Part shown: positions 5,472 through 18,940 of the stretch, in pieces
Numbering within the stretch: position 1 is the stretch's first letter
Layout: the number at the start of each line of letters is the position of its first letter
Assembly (NCBI GenBank): GCA_025937235.1
Contig: JAICRU010000012.1
Coordinates: 1-50,710, forward strand
Origin: Acidimicrobiia bacterium
GTDB lineage: Bacteria > Actinomycetota > Acidimicrobiia > Spongiisociales > ZC4RG35
Reading direction: 5' to 3'
Length of the DNA: 50,710 nt
Program-made: the position numbers and the translations under genes
Notes under the pieces: generated by a model
The model's input: only the letters and a program-made list of their open reading frames with translations
Told to the model about the DNA's origin: nothing
Database searches by the model: none

Positions 5472-6029
5472 ATGCCGACGTTCCATGTCCTCCATGTCGG
5501 ATACGGTGGTGGGCGGGTTGCCTCGACCATCTCTCTGATCGAAGCCGGCTCCTCCTTGATCGTCGTCGATCCCGGGATGGTCGCCTCGACATCTTTGATC
5601 CTCGACCCGATCGCAGACCTGGGCCGGTCGGCGGAGGAGGTGACCGATGTCATCCTCTCGCATCACCACCCCGACCACACCGTGAACGCGGCCCTGTTCC
5701 CTGAGGCGAGGATTCATGACCACTGGGCGATCTATCGCGGGGACGTGTGGGAGTCGCGACCGGCCGAAGGGTTCGTCGTCGCCGACGGGGTGACGCTTTG
5801 GCACACCCCGGGCCATACCGCCGAAGACGTGACCACGATCGTCGCCGCTGAGGAGAGAACCGTTGCCTTCACCCATCTCTGGTGGTATGAGAACGCTCCG
5901 TTTCACGACCCGCTGTGCACCGATCCCGACGGGCTCCACGTCGGTAGGGAGCGGGTGCTCGAGGTGGCGGGGCTGATAGTACCGGGCCACGGTCCGGCGT
6001 TCGTACCGGACGACTCGACTTCTCGGTAA
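5472..6029 (+). CDS. Metallo-beta-lactamase-fold hydrolase (MBLAC1-like)
   Basis: A 185-residue soluble metallohydrolase. The zinc-binding motif HxHxDH is visible as HHHPDH (H64, H66, D68, H69), followed by later metal-ligand candidates in HTPGH near residue 113 and PGHGPAF near the C-terminus. The short single-domain form resembles the MBLAC1/glyoxalase II-like branch. The substrate is unknown; hydrolysis of a thioester, phosphodiester or lactone would fit the fold. It is divergent from the binding-protein operon and begins 6 nt after a TANNNT box, suggesting a leaderless transcript. The next gene follows after 31 bp on the same strand. Confidence 0.85.
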   Translation: MPTFHVLHVGYGGGRVASTISLIEAGSSLIVVDPGMVASTSLILDPIADLGRSAEEVTDVILSHHHPDHTVNAALFPEARIHDHWAIYRGDVWESRPAEGFVVADGVTLWHTPGHTAEDVTTIVAAEERTVAFTHLWWYENAPFHDPLCTDPDGLHVGRERVLEVAGLIVPGHGPAFVPDDSTSR

Positions 6030-6060
6030 CGCATGATCCCTATGATTTGTCCAACTAGAG

Positions 6061-6804
6061 ATGGGAAACCCGGTGGCGCTAGGCAATTTTCAGTGGAAGG
6101 GCCGTCTCGGTCCACTCGACCTGATCCTGGGTGAGAGCACCTTCGCCCCGACCACCATCTCGACCTTGGTTGCCGACGCGATGGACGTGAGCGAGGGCGA
6201 CGTCGTGATCGACGTCGGCACTGGCACCGGCGTGTTGGCGATCATTGCGGCCAAGCTGGGGGCTTCGCGGGTGCTGGCTGTCGACAACAGCCCGGAGGTC
6301 GAGGAAGTAGGCAAGGCCAACGCCGAGGCACACGGCGTCTCCGAACGAATCGAGTTTCACCACGGCGACCTCTTCGATCCGCTCGACGAGGACATCGAGG
6401 CCGACGTGATCATCGGGGATGTCTCCGGCGTCCCCGACTCGCTGGCCGCGGTGAGCGGCTGGTTCCCTACCGGGATCGGTGGCGGCCCGAGAGGCAGTGA
6501 GCTGCCGATCAGGATGCTCCGTGAGGCGGTGCGTCGGTTGAGGCCCGGCGGGCGGGTCTTTCTCCCCACGGGGAGCCTGCAGGACGAGACGGCCATCCTC
6601 GAGGCCGCGCGCGCCGTGTACGGCAAAGTAGCCCGACTCGCCGAGAAGATGATCCCCCTGCCTTCGCTTCTCGCCGAGAGCGAGACCCTCAAGTCTCTGA
6701 TCTCCGAAGGCATCGTCCACCTCGTGCCCAAGGGCTCGAGGTTCCTCTGGGAGACAAGGGTGTGGCGACTCTCCGGTGCCCCGGCACCGAGCGAGACCAG
6801 CTAG
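6061..6804 (+). CDS. Class I SAM-dependent methyltransferase
   Basis: A 247-residue Rossmann-fold methyltransferase. Motif I is clear as VIDVGTGTGVLAI (about residues 49-61), followed by an acidic residue ending the second strand (VLAVDNS) and GDLFDPL. The place where PrmC/HemK enzymes carry NPPY reads GDVSGVPD here, so it is not a standard N5-glutamine methyltransferase. Overall it looks like PrmA/PrmC-type small methyltransferases, but the substrate (protein, RNA or small molecule) cannot be assigned. A TATGAT box lies 14 nt before the ATG. Confidence 0.8.
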   Translation: MGNPVALGNFQWKGRLGPLDLILGESTFAPTTISTLVADAMDVSEGDVVIDVGTGTGVLAIIAAKLGASRVLAVDNSPEVEEVGKANAEAHGVSERIEFHHGDLFDPLDEDIEADVIIGDVSGVPDSLAAVSGWFPTGIGGGPRGSELPIRMLREAVRRLRPGGRVFLPTGSLQDETAILEAARAVYGKVARLAEKMIPLPSLLAESETLKSLISEGIVHLVPKGSRFLWETRVWRLSGAPAPSETS

Positions 6805-11820: not shown

Positions 11821-13100
11821 GCCCCGCCGTCGATCTGGTCGGCGATCTTCGTGAAACGGTCGGCTCGGCGCAGGTGCTCACCGACCCCGACCTGACCATC
11901 GGGTATGTCAGGGATTGGACGGGGAGGTGGACCGGCAACACCACGGCCGTGGTCCGGCCGGGCTCGGTAGAAGAGGTGCAGAGGGTGGTTCGCATCTGCC
12001 AGGAGGCGGGAGCACCTCTGGTGCCTCAGGGCGGCAACACTGGCCTGGTCGGGGGATCGATCCCGCACCGCGGCGAGGTGCTGCTCTCGTTACGCCGGCT
12101 CGATTGGCTGAGGCCGATCGAGCACGACACCGGGTCGGTGATCGCTGGTGCGGGGGTCACTTTGGGGACCCTGCAGGCTCATGCCCGCAAGGAGGGTCTG
12201 GTCTATGCAGTGGACCTGGCCTCACGCGACTCGGCGACCGTCGGCGGGACCATCGCCACCAACGCCGGTGGCGCCTTCGTGGTATCACGTGGTGATACCC
12301 GACGCCAGGTGCGGGGGCTGGAAGTCGTGTTTGCCGATGGGAGTGTCGTGTCCACCATCGAGACATTGCCCAAGGTGAGCACGGGCCCCGATCTGCTTCA
12401 GACGATGATCGGCAGCGAAGGGACCCTCGGGGTGATCACCTCGGCCCGCCTGCATCTTTCGATCCCGAACGGGGCCGAGCACATGGTGATGCTCATCGGG
12501 GCGGACACCCTCGCCGATGGGCTGCGGGTGATGGGACCCGGTTTGCGAGCCATCGAATTCTTCGACCGGGCCTGTCTCGAGGCGGTAATGGAGCACCGAG
12601 GGCTGGTTCGCCCGATCCAAGGTGATTTTCCCTTCTACCTCCTGGTCGAGACAACGGGCAACCTCGATCTCGAAGAAAGCTCCCCTGCGGTGGTGGATCG
12701 ATCCCTTTGGGTCTACCGCGAATCGATCACCGAGACGATCAACGGCCTTGGAGTGCCGCTCAAGCTCGACGTGGCGTTGCCGTTCGATCGGATGGACGAG
12801 TTTGCCGATGCTGTTCGGGCGCTCGACGCGCCTGGTGCGATCTTCCTTTACGGCCACCTGGCAGAGGGCAATTTCCACGTCAACACGGTGGGCAGCCCGG
12901 ACCCGGATCGGGCCTCAGAGGCGATCCTCGGGCTGGTCGTGTCGATGGGCGGCGCCATCGCCAGCGAGCACGGGATCGGGGTAGCCAAGACCGGTTGGTG
13001 GCGACGGACAACCGATCCAGGGTCGATCGAGCTTGCCAGGCGGGTCAAGGAGGCGCTCGACCCGAACCGGATCCTGAATCCGCAGGTCTTCTGGGGTTGA
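11817..13100 (+). CDS. FAD-binding oxidase, D-lactate/glycolate dehydrogenase family (GlcD/D2HGDH-like)
   Basis: A flavoprotein of about 427 residues that oxidises a 2-hydroxyacid such as D-lactate, glycolate or D-2-hydroxyglutarate. The N-terminal FAD-binding (PCMH-type) half shows VVRPGSVEEVQRVV, PQGGNTGLVGGS and SATVGGTIATNAGG. The C-terminal half shows the metal/substrate His region YGHLAEGNFHVN and ends SEHGIGVAK...LDPNRILNPQVFWG, the usual family finish. The start is uncertain: GTG at 11817 gives the family N-terminus and overlaps a short leader frame; TTG at 11799, preceded by GGAG, is the alternative. A degraded copy of its last 103 bp lies at 15069-15171. Confidence 0.9.
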   Translation: MSPAVDLVGDLRETVGSAQVLTDPDLTIGYVRDWTGRWTGNTTAVVRPGSVEEVQRVVRICQEAGAPLVPQGGNTGLVGGSIPHRGEVLLSLRRLDWLRPIEHDTGSVIAGAGVTLGTLQAHARKEGLVYAVDLASRDSATVGGTIATNAGGAFVVSRGDTRRQVRGLEVVFADGSVVSTIETLPKVSTGPDLLQTMIGSEGTLGVITSARLHLSIPNGAEHMVMLIGADTLADGLRVMGPGLRAIEFFDRACLEAVMEHRGLVRPIQGDFPFYLLVETTGNLDLEESSPAVVDRSLWVYRESITETINGLGVPLKLDVALPFDRMDEFADAVRALDAPGAIFLYGHLAEGNFHVNTVGSPDPDRASEAILGLVVSMGGAIASEHGIGVAKTGWWRRTTDPGSIELARRVKEALDPNRILNPQVFWG

Positions 13101-13188
13101 TCCCCGCCCGTGGTCACTGACATGGCTGCACTCGTGGATCGTGGAGCTCAGAGGATGGACGGTTCGCCGTCAGCAGCGCGTCGTCCCC

Positions 13189-13223
13189 AGAGCCCACCCC
13201 CGTGAGTCGGGGGGGTGGGCTCT
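13189..13223. terminator. Strong hairpin between convergent genes
   Basis: Arms AGAGCCCACCCCC and GGGGGTGGGCTCT form 13 perfect base pairs around a 9-nt loop. It lies between the convergent oxidase and M28 peptidase genes, so it can serve both strands. No T-tract follows. Confidence 0.75.
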
Positions 13224-13263
13224 GTCCAATCTGCTTGCCGGAGACCGTGCCGTAATTACGTCT

Positions 13264-17387: not shown

Positions 17388-17449
17388 CCCCGATTCCGAC
17401 CGGATCGATCGGTAGCGTCGAGTCACCAGACGACGAGACCAGGAGCAGG

Positions 17450-18940
17450 GTGGCCGGCACGATCATCCCGAGATGGGAATGGCGCACCTTCTCGCCCCCT
17501 GGTGAGGTGGTCTCCGCGTTCGCCCGGATTGACCCACACGTGGTGCAGGACAGTGACGAGGTCTACCTGCTCACCGACGGTGACGCCAACCTCAAGGTGC
17601 GCGACGGGCTCCTCGACGTCAAGTCGTTGCGGAGCACGGATCGCCGGGGTCTGGAGCTTTGGGAGCCAGTGGTCAAGGCAGAGCTACCGGTGACTCGCGG
17701 CGAGCTTGCATCCGTCTTCGCCGCCCTGGGAGCCCCCGCCCCTTCTCTCGAGGCGGAGGCCTACACCCTGGAGGGGACAATGGTCGAACTGGCAGAGGCC
17801 GGTGACGAAATAGACGCGGTCGAGGTGCACAAGCGACGAGCCCGCTACCAGGTCCACGACTGCATGGTCGAGCTGACCGACCTGGTCGTAGACGGACGGC
17901 CCGGCAAGACCATTGCGATCGAATCCGAGGATGCGGAGGCCGTGGTCGCGGCGATCGGGTCCTTTGGCCTCACCGGCTATGTCAACACCAATTACACCCG
18001 TGGACTCGAGCAAGTCCTCGGCCGCCGCCCGGTGCGCTACGCCGTGATCGACGTCGGGACCAACTCTGTCAAGTTCCTCATCGCTGAGCGGGCCGACGAC
18101 GGTTGGCACACAGTCCTCGACCGGGCCGAAGTCACCCGTCTCGGTGAAGGACTCGAGGAAAGTGGTGAGATCGGGCAGGGGGCCCTGGGCCGGACCACAG
18201 ACGCGATCGCAGCCATGGTCGAGGAGGCTACGACTCACGGTGTGGTCGCAATTGCATCGGTCGGGACCGCGGGTATGCGGGCGGCCACCAACGCGGACGA
18301 GGCGATCGCCCGTATCCAGGAAGCGACGGGCATCCTGATCGAGACGATTCCGGGCGAGGAGGAGGGGCGGCTTGCCTATCTCGCAGTGCAGTCGAGCCTG
18401 AAGCTGGAGCCAGGGCCACTCGTCGTCTTCGACAGCGGAGGGGGCAGCACCCAATTCACCTTCGGTCACGGAGAGGCCGTTCTCGATCGCTTCAGCCTGC
18501 CTGTCGGCGCGGTTCGGTATGCCGAGGCCTTCGAACTAGACGGAATCGTGCCCCCCAGCGTTCTCGACCAGGCAATGACGGCGCTCGCGGAGGATCTGGG
18601 AGCGATCGACGGCCGCGACCAGCCAGACGTAGTAGTCGGGATGGGCGGGACCGTCACCAATCTCACCGCGGTCGGCCTGGCCATGGCCAGATACGACCCG
18701 GACCGGATCCAGGGATCGGCCCTGACCAGAGAGGAAGTGGAGCGGCAGATCGAGCTCTACGCCGCGACCCCGTTAGAGGAGCGTCGTGTCATCGTTGGTC
18801 TCCAGCCGAAACGAGCCGAGGTCATTCTGGCGGGGGCGTGCATCGTGCGAACAGTGCTCCAGAAATTGGGCCGCGATGCCCTCATCGTCAGCGACCGGGG
18901 TCTCCGCCACGGGCTACTCCAAGACCGATTCGGGAGCTGA
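17450..18940 (+). CDS. Ppx/GppA phosphatase with N-terminal CYTH-like domain
   Basis: A 496-residue two-domain protein. Residues about 200-496 are a Ppx/GppA phosphatase: YAVIDVGTNSVKFLI, IETIPGEEEGRLAYLAV, VFDSGGGSTQFTFG, LPVGAVRYAEAF and VVGMGGTVTNL, so exopolyphosphatase or (p)ppGpp-related activity is expected. The usual GGGSTE reads GGGSTQ. Residues 1-195 resemble a CYTH/triphosphate-tunnel fold: a strand WEWRTF, then LKVRDGLLDVKSL, basic VHKRRARYQV, and TIAIES near its end; the classical ExExK motif is not present. GTG at 17450 follows AGGAG; the frame is open upstream without similarity. A convergent hydrolase gene follows. Confidence 0.82.
   Translation: MAGTIIPRWEWRTFSPPGEVVSAFARIDPHVVQDSDEVYLLTDGDANLKVRDGLLDVKSLRSTDRRGLELWEPVVKAELPVTRGELASVFAALGAPAPSLEAEAYTLEGTMVELAEAGDEIDAVEVHKRRARYQVHDCMVELTDLVVDGRPGKTIAIESEDAEAVVAAIGSFGLTGYVNTNYTRGLEQVLGRRPVRYAVIDVGTNSVKFLIAERADDGWHTVLDRAEVTRLGEGLEESGEIGQGALGRTTDAIAAMVEEATTHGVVAIASVGTAGMRAATNADEAIARIQEATGILIETIPGEEEGRLAYLAVQSSLKLEPGPLVVFDSGGGSTQFTFGHGEAVLDRFSLPVGAVRYAEAFELDGIVPPSVLDQAMTALAEDLGAIDGRDQPDVVVGMGGTVTNLTAVGLAMARYDPDRIQGSALTREEVERQIELYAATPLEERRVIVGLQPKRAEVILAGACIVRTVLQKLGRDALIVSDRGLRHGLLQDRFGS

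Follow-up and report, generated by a model that had tools for sequence, protein, structure and literature searches.

A predicted triphosphate-tunnel domain fused to a Ppx/GppA phosphatase domain in an Acidimicrobiia bacterium, a candidate partner of phosphate-chain hydrolases

The window studied here, a stretch of 50,710 nucleotides from an Acidimicrobiia bacterium (assembly of 171 contigs, 3.08 Mb), contains a gene that raises the question of what a tunnel-like N-terminal domain would do on the same chain as a Ppx/GppA enzyme. The preliminary description of this DNA had placed a fused reading frame at 17450-18940, and this was borne out by a GTG start codon behind an AGGAG sequence and by the same start and length in a close homologue, from an Acidimicrobiia MAG (L008, 86% identical, GTG start shared). 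A survey of other genomes, as proposed there, returned the fusion in 13 distinct sequences, including Pseudomonas isolates and a Cupriavidus plasmid, so the fusion is real and a sequencing or frame artefact, joining two frames by chance, was ruled out. The gene and its two domains are as follows.

17441..17445, + strand: AGGAG ribosome-binding site, read from the sequence, 4 nt ahead of the GTG at 17450
17450..18940, + strand: TTM-Ppx fusion gene, a single open reading frame of 496 aa
17450..18034, + strand: N-terminal tunnel domain (RWEWR family), residues 1-195, from the AlphaFold2 model, fold comparison and alignments
18035..18940, + strand: short-type Ppx/GppA domain, residues 196-496, from the PF02541 match and the fold match to 1t6c

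The AlphaFold2 model of the N-terminal domain, built on an alignment of 22 N-domains, had a mean pLDDT of 93.4 and a pTM of 0.86. CYTH/TTM proteins headed the Foldseek list obtained with this model, with ygiF in complex with tripolyphosphate at an E value of 1.4e-6 and further matches to Bacillus CYTH proteins, Pyrococcus PH1012 and thiamine triphosphatase. In the VIA-align comparison, the best match was human thiamine triphosphatase (Z 13.3, rmsd 3.4, 173 residues aligned); archaeal (Pyrococcus) and Bacillus CYTH proteins reached Z values of 12-13, and RNA triphosphatases and Mediator subunits were lower, at 8-10. Vtc4p was absent among the best 50 matches listed by either program, an absence that excludes nothing. 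By prediction, the N-domain is thus a closed eight-stranded triphosphate tunnel, in agreement with the earlier assignment of residues 1-195, and the different fold that would have refuted this assignment was not obtained.

Sequence searches gave a different result from the fold comparison. Searched as a single sequence, residues 1-192 gave no meaningful match in Pfam or NCBIfam, nor in PDB with phmmer. The Pfam CYTH profile (PF01928) was never significant, with a best E value of 0.052, matches in 2 of the 22 members and no match in the window protein, and the VTC domain PF09359 matched none of the 22. A profile search of PDB with the N-domain returned only Ndc80 and DnaD matches, judged to be due to chance, and hhalign comparisons of the N-domain family with the CYTH family encoded next to it in other genomes gave probabilities of 2% and 0.6%, which are not significant. 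The motif ExExK defines the CYTH family. Since neither this motif nor a PF01928 match was found when both were tested, the N-domain, judged by its sequence, lies outside the CYTH family as defined, despite its TTM fold. The family is uncharacterised, and we name it here RWEWR-TTM; a literature search covering titles and the opening parts of abstracts returned no publication describing either the family or the fusion.

The rest of the chain had been described as a Ppx/GppA enzyme, and the assignment held. Residues 211-492 matched PF02541 with an E value of 1e-48 (166.7 bits against a cut-off of 27), the best solved sequence relative was the Ppx/GppA protein of Aquifex aeolicus, and the Ppx part of the full-length model, with its ASKHA core, fitted that structure (1t6c) with a Z of 39.4 over 301 residues. 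The score against the exopolyphosphatase family TIGR03706 was 208.9 bits, below its cut-off of 307. The motifs DVGTNS, GEEEGR, GMGGT and SDRGLRHG are retained in the window protein, and two stretches of this half deserve to be located.

18353..18370, + strand: GEEEGR motif, residues 302-307, Ppx active site
18431..18454, + strand: DSGGGSTQ, residues 328-335, with Gln335 at the position of a predicted metal-ligand Glu (role from PMC3411833)

The replacement of GGGSTE by GGGSTQ (residues 330-335), also noticed earlier, proved to be typical of the fused proteins: Gln is present in 10 of the 11 readable fused sequences (the exception, L011, has Glu), and Glu in all 16 unfused Ppx partners described below. 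In MTB-PPX1, a short Ppx that favours short chains, metal binding is predicted for Asp135 and Glu142 (PMC3411833). Judged by their spacing, D328 and Q335 would be the counterparts of these two residues. The loss of the metal-ligand Glu is a residue variant that leaves PF02541 membership unaffected, and the Ppx half is a true Ppx/GppA protein whose metal motif is a variant one. The same genome has another Ppx/GppA gene elsewhere (C69:388-1158), of the ordinary kind with GGGSTE. The model of the full-length fusion had a pLDDT of 93.4 and a pTM of 0.85, and the latter value suggests a fixed arrangement of the two domains; among the matches listed for this model, no chain spanned both of them.

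To locate the residues that would line the tunnel, we refer to the following stretches.

17471..17485, + strand: R8-x-E10-x-R12 on strand 1 (model strand 8-14), at the site of the CYTH ExExK, invariant in 28 members
17594..17623, + strand: basic tunnel residues K49, R51 and K58, R51 and K58 being invariant and K49 nearly so
17831..17923, + strand: K128, R130, E141 and E158 on tunnel strands, invariant, the register of E158 being ambiguous

Across 28 diverse aligned members, R8, E10, R12, Y39, R51, K58, W71, K128, R130, E141 and E158 are invariant, and this conservation speaks for a tunnel that still works and against decay. The absence of a clear ExExK noted in the preliminary description holds for the whole alignment, RxExR (R8, E10, R12) standing in its place in 28 of 28 members. 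In the VIA-align ranges, model residue 7 pairs with residue 1 of AtTTM3 and of two archaeal proteins, from which we infer a strand-1 register that sets R8 against AtTTM3 Glu-2, E10 against Glu-4 and R12 against the Lys. When the N-domain and adjacent CYTH families were merged with MAFFT, strand 1 was misplaced in three modes, and for this reason only the middle part of the alignment was used. In this part, all three modes aligned K49, R51, K58, K128, R130 and E141 with R39, R41, K52, K87, R89 and E100 of the CYTH family, and the pairing of K128/R130/E141 with K87/R89/E100 was also seen in the hhalign alignment, whose probability is 2%. MAFFT placed K76 at E62 of the adjacent CYTH, a residue that may or may not correspond to Glu-90 of AtTTM3. 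In strand 8, hhalign pairs T154/A156 with the two CYTH glutamates and MAFFT pairs A156/E158 with them; because of this ambiguous register, metal site 1 may be either kept or lost.

In AtTTM3, metal 1 is held by Glu-169 and metal 2 by an acidic patch of Glu-2, Glu-4, Glu-90 and Glu-171; the four patch positions are basic in Vtc4p, where they lead the polyphosphate chain (PMC4641920). The site 2 acidic patch of TTM hydrolases is not found intact in the N-domain, where the Glu-2 position is R8, the Glu-4 position is E10 and the counterparts of the other two are ambiguous in the MAFFT alignment. According to these alignments, part of the second metal site would have changed to basic, with the basic tunnel kept. 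The earlier suggestion that this part may be a binding rather than a catalytic module is plausible.

The genomic distribution of the N-domain was then considered. A scan of genome contigs with the full fusion protein gave 21 loci. A single-sequence search found the N-domain in 5 of 296 genomes of the organism's own phylum, and whole-genome searches found it in 15 of 296 genomes of its class, 8 of 398 Bacillota, 7 of 398 Pseudomonadota and 51 of 149 genomes of Neomarinimicrobiota/Fidelibacterota (the phylum of G571). In this last phylum there were 53 places, of which 30 were taken as loci, in addition to L115 and L116, and 21 were left out. From another search, a second place in G570 and two fragments, in G574 and G572, were also left out. 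The partner count excludes matches below 30 bits, matches that fit the CYTH profile better, and L126, a repeat of L009. One candidate (L097 in G166, single-sequence E 9.5e-4) was discarded, as the profile found no N-domain in it.

Seventy-eight distinct members were obtained in this way: 13 are fused to Ppx, 16 are followed directly by a Ppx gene and 44 by a CYTH gene, one lies at a contig end and four have neither partner. A partner hydrolase is therefore fused or adjacent in 73 of the 78, with gaps of 107 nt or less in 59 of the 60 unfused pairs. The adjacent CYTH proteins have an intact EIERK and match NE1496/NeuTTM (2fbl, 3typ), a specific tripolyphosphatase (PMC3440374). These data indicate that two unrelated phosphate-chain hydrolases, Ppx and a NeuTTM-like CYTH, replace each other as the partner of one tunnel domain. 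Loci of the same lineage are not independent, yet both partner types recur across phyla, and this exchange is the strongest functional evidence of the analysis. It also gives independent support from gene neighbourhoods to the earlier idea that the tunnel works with a phosphate-chain hydrolase. This predicted tunnel family, missed by the profile libraries used here, has an unusually consistent partner across several phyla. Three of the four partnerless members are the most divergent of the 78; divergent partnerless relatives (L094:8337-8939, L093:8548-9198 and L143) gave E values of about 1e-17 to 1e-20, and in L094 a GlpD-like ORF, recognised by eye, adjoins the N-domain gene.

Altogether, we give about an even chance to the explanation that the RWEWR-TTM tunnel works with a phosphate-chain hydrolase by capturing oligo- or polyphosphate for the Ppx active site; the substrate, its binding, its passage from one domain to the other and the sign of the effect are what we infer. 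The basic tunnel would catch an oligo- or polyphosphate and would present it to the Ppx active site or retain it there. In the window organism the hydrolase would be the short Ppx to which the tunnel is fused, and in other organisms the product of the next gene, either Ppx or a tripolyphosphatase of the NeuTTM-like CYTH type. Long Ppx proteins would owe their grip on the chain to additional C-terminal domains, and ygiF to CHAD; the tunnel would provide the short Ppx with such a grip. The Arg at the AtTTM3 Glu-2 position, if it is likened to the basic patch of Vtc4p, favours the holding of polyphosphate. Also in favour are the partner counts, the invariant residues, the short-chain preference of MTB-PPX1 and the suggested fixed arrangement of the two domains; against it weigh the possible catalytic dyad Y39/K58 discussed below, the non-significant hhalign comparison with CYTH, the ambiguous strand 8 and the four members with neither partner. 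Through RWEWR-TTM, the way in which short polyphosphatases grip their chains would become directly accessible to experiment.

Known systems resemble the fusion in part. With the CYTH/TTM tripolyphosphatases (NeuTTM NE1496, AtTTM3, ygiF) and thiamine triphosphatase, the N-domain would share the predicted eight-stranded tunnel and, by alignment, the basic residues K49, R51, K58, K128 and R130, but it differs by having RxExR instead of ExExK and by remaining below significance in Pfam CYTH and hhalign comparisons. Vtc4p has the tunnel fold and is basic at the Glu-2 position where the N-domain would have its Arg (PMC4641920); the N-domain differs in its lack of a PF09359 match (22 members) and in being joined to or beside a hydrolase. 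In ygiF-type TTM-CHAD and other CHAD proteins, a polyphosphate-handling module, proposed to recruit the substrate, is likewise fused or adjacent to a polyphosphate enzyme (PMC6537752), and in long E. coli-type Ppx proteins the Ppx core is joined by an extra domain that should influence how the chain is bound (PMC11234463). However, CHAD is an all-helical bundle and the module of the window protein a predicted beta tunnel on an ASKHA-fold Ppx, and the extra domains of long Ppx are C-terminal and helical, in contrast with an N-terminal tunnel on a core of the short (A. aeolicus) type. In function, the tunnel might then be comparable to CHAD on ygiF or to the C-terminal domains of long Ppx, as a polyphosphate-handling part that serves a hydrolase.

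The tunnel could instead be an enzyme in itself, using metal in an altered way as a triphosphatase or polyphosphatase to finish the short PPPi/PPi ends left by Ppx or to cleave a nucleotide or thiamine triphosphate, which we consider rather unlikely. The invariant Y39 and K58 may match Tyr-28 and Lys-52, the proposed catalytic dyad of NeuTTM (PMC3440374), so that the tunnel may hydrolyse; K58 aligns with CYTH K52 in MAFFT, and the match of Y39 comes from the motif only. E10, E141 and E158 are also invariant, thiamine triphosphatase is the closest solved fold, and E. coli exopolyphosphatase is said to act poorly on PPPi (PMC3440374). On the other hand, Arg is at the Glu-2 position in every aligned member, and AtTTM3 loses much of its activity when Glu-2, Glu-4 or Glu-169 is mutated (PMC4641920). 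In addition, 44 of the 78 members already have a NeuTTM-like CYTH as partner, and a second tripolyphosphatase in the tunnel would be redundant beside a partner that splits tripolyphosphate.

A tunnel acting as an anion sensor for PPPi, polyphosphate, (p)ppGpp or Pi, switching the hydrolase on or off, with Gln335 as the mark of a Ppx whose altered metal binding is under such control, would agree with the invariance of the predicted anion-binding residues, with the Gln of 10 of 11 fused proteins against the Glu of 16 of 16 unfused Ppx, with the regulators and DUF47/PhoU-like genes in the neighbourhoods, and with the inhibition of MTB-PPX1 by (p)ppGpp (PMC3411833). We hold it to be unlikely, as the same control surface would be needed on two structurally unrelated partner enzymes. 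It is very improbable that the fusion is no longer a polyphosphatase and that the protein chain as a whole stores or carries polyphosphate, the Gln335 Ppx being a binding domain. The loss of the predicted metal-ligand Glu (role from PMC3411833) in the fused clade speaks for such a carrier, but GEEEGR, D328, GGGS, GMGGT and SDRGLRHG are retained, the fused member L011 has Glu, and Gln could still bind a metal ion.

To return to capture for a hydrolase, phosphate genes in the wider neighbourhoods, with gene families assigned by Pfam, speak for it. All 16 unfused Ppx loci have TctC directly behind Ppx; TctA is present in 13 of them, the contigs of the other three ending soon after TctC. The 28 CYTH-type loci include a Na/Pi symporter in 10, TctC in 6 (directly behind CYTH), DUF47, PHO4 and a phosphonate-type binding protein in 5 each, a phosphate-selective porin in 4 and an ApaH-like phosphoesterase in 3. 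None of these families was found in the 11 fused loci, and a polyphosphate operon was looked for by eye around the window gene, where no phosphate genes were recognised next to it, a point against this explanation. All 10 fusion genomes examined have both PPK1 and PPK2, including that of the window, in which PPK1, PPK2, the second Ppx and the CYTH-like gene called CYTH-B below are all on contigs other than that of the fusion. In draft genomes searched for PPK1 and PPK2, both kinases were missing in seven of seven N-domain Bacillota genomes (query genome G567 excluded), which carry the Ppx-TctCBA operon with the N-domain; in seven genomes of Neomarinimicrobiota/Fidelibacterota, PPK1 was found in none and PPK2 in four. 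An operon of this type lacking a known polyphosphate kinase hints at an external or a different substrate, subject to the draft state of the genomes and to a possible VTC-type polymerase.

On the basis of TctC behind Ppx (16/16) and behind CYTH (6/28), of the porin (4/28) and of the PPK-less Bacillota operon genomes (7/7), RWEWR-TTM might be the signature subunit of a system for uptake and digestion of external oligo- or polyphosphate, a reading that we regard as doubtful. A porin of the phosphate/pyrophosphate type would admit the chain, a TctABC-type transporter would carry it across the inner membrane, the tunnel protein would receive it, and Ppx or a tripolyphosphatase would degrade it; the fused form of the window would have arisen later, as an intracellular branch among bacteria that possess PPK. 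OprO and OprP are channels for pyrophosphate and phosphate (PMC9769906). The search of titles and opening parts of abstracts returned neither a polyphosphate link of TctABC nor an importer of condensed phosphates. If this reading were true, TctABC would transport condensed phosphate across the inner membrane, and a real transporter link would give a handle on the bacterial uptake of these compounds.

Several single loci are recorded here for their gene content. L015, in a PPK1-bearing genome, has a VTC-domain gene (12550-13254, - strand) 6.6 kb from the N-domain/Ppx/TctCBA operon. In the Pseudomonadota loci L138, L139 and L140, an ApaH-like metallophosphoesterase gene is beside the N-domain/CYTH pair, and in L138 a CBS-domain gene lies immediately upstream, with a guanylate-kinase-like ORF, recognised by eye, separating the two genes of the pair. 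L022 (Acidobacteriota) contains two N-domain copies (969-1622 and 5983-6585), one of them directly behind a phosphate-selective porin gene. A gene for a phosphonate-type periplasmic binding protein is upstream of the N-domain operon in L023, L106, L107 and L108; behind it in L023 come genes for a histidine kinase and a sigma-54 response regulator, possibly its sensor set.

All 12 fused rows fall into a single clade, with a support of 98, in a tree built from 59 N-domains by a quick search with SH-aLRT values only. This clade comprises Actinomycetota, Pseudomonas and another pseudomonadote, the Cupriavidus plasmid and a Verrucomicrobia MAG. As one fused clade spans Actinomycetota, Pseudomonadota and a Verrucomicrobia MAG, a single fusion event followed by lateral spread is probably the simplest reading of the tree. 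In the sample of the organism's own class, the fused form was present in 6 of 296 genomes.

A second, weakly CYTH-like gene, CYTH-B (PF01928 E 0.0011 in Pseudomonas, below the cut-off), adjoins the fusion in L009, L010, L012, L034, L084, L118 and L141, and was counted in 6 of the 11 fused loci surveyed. It is present in 9 of 10 fusion genomes, including that of the window (C33:10532-11254, locus L136), and in none of 41 same-class genomes without the fusion, the search of the fusion genomes serving as positive control. In the phylum sample (n=296), CYTH-B was found in five genomes, two of them with the fusion; the carriers G013, G165 and G261 showed no N-domain in the single-sequence search, and its role as a strict companion of the fusion was rejected. 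Two settings of the fusion would fit lateral transfer: in L118 it is at 408788-410278 of pMTS1, a 1.6 Mb plasmid of Cupriavidus sp. P-10, and in L010 (Pseudomonas taiwanensis) it is near RND-type efflux genes recognised by eye.
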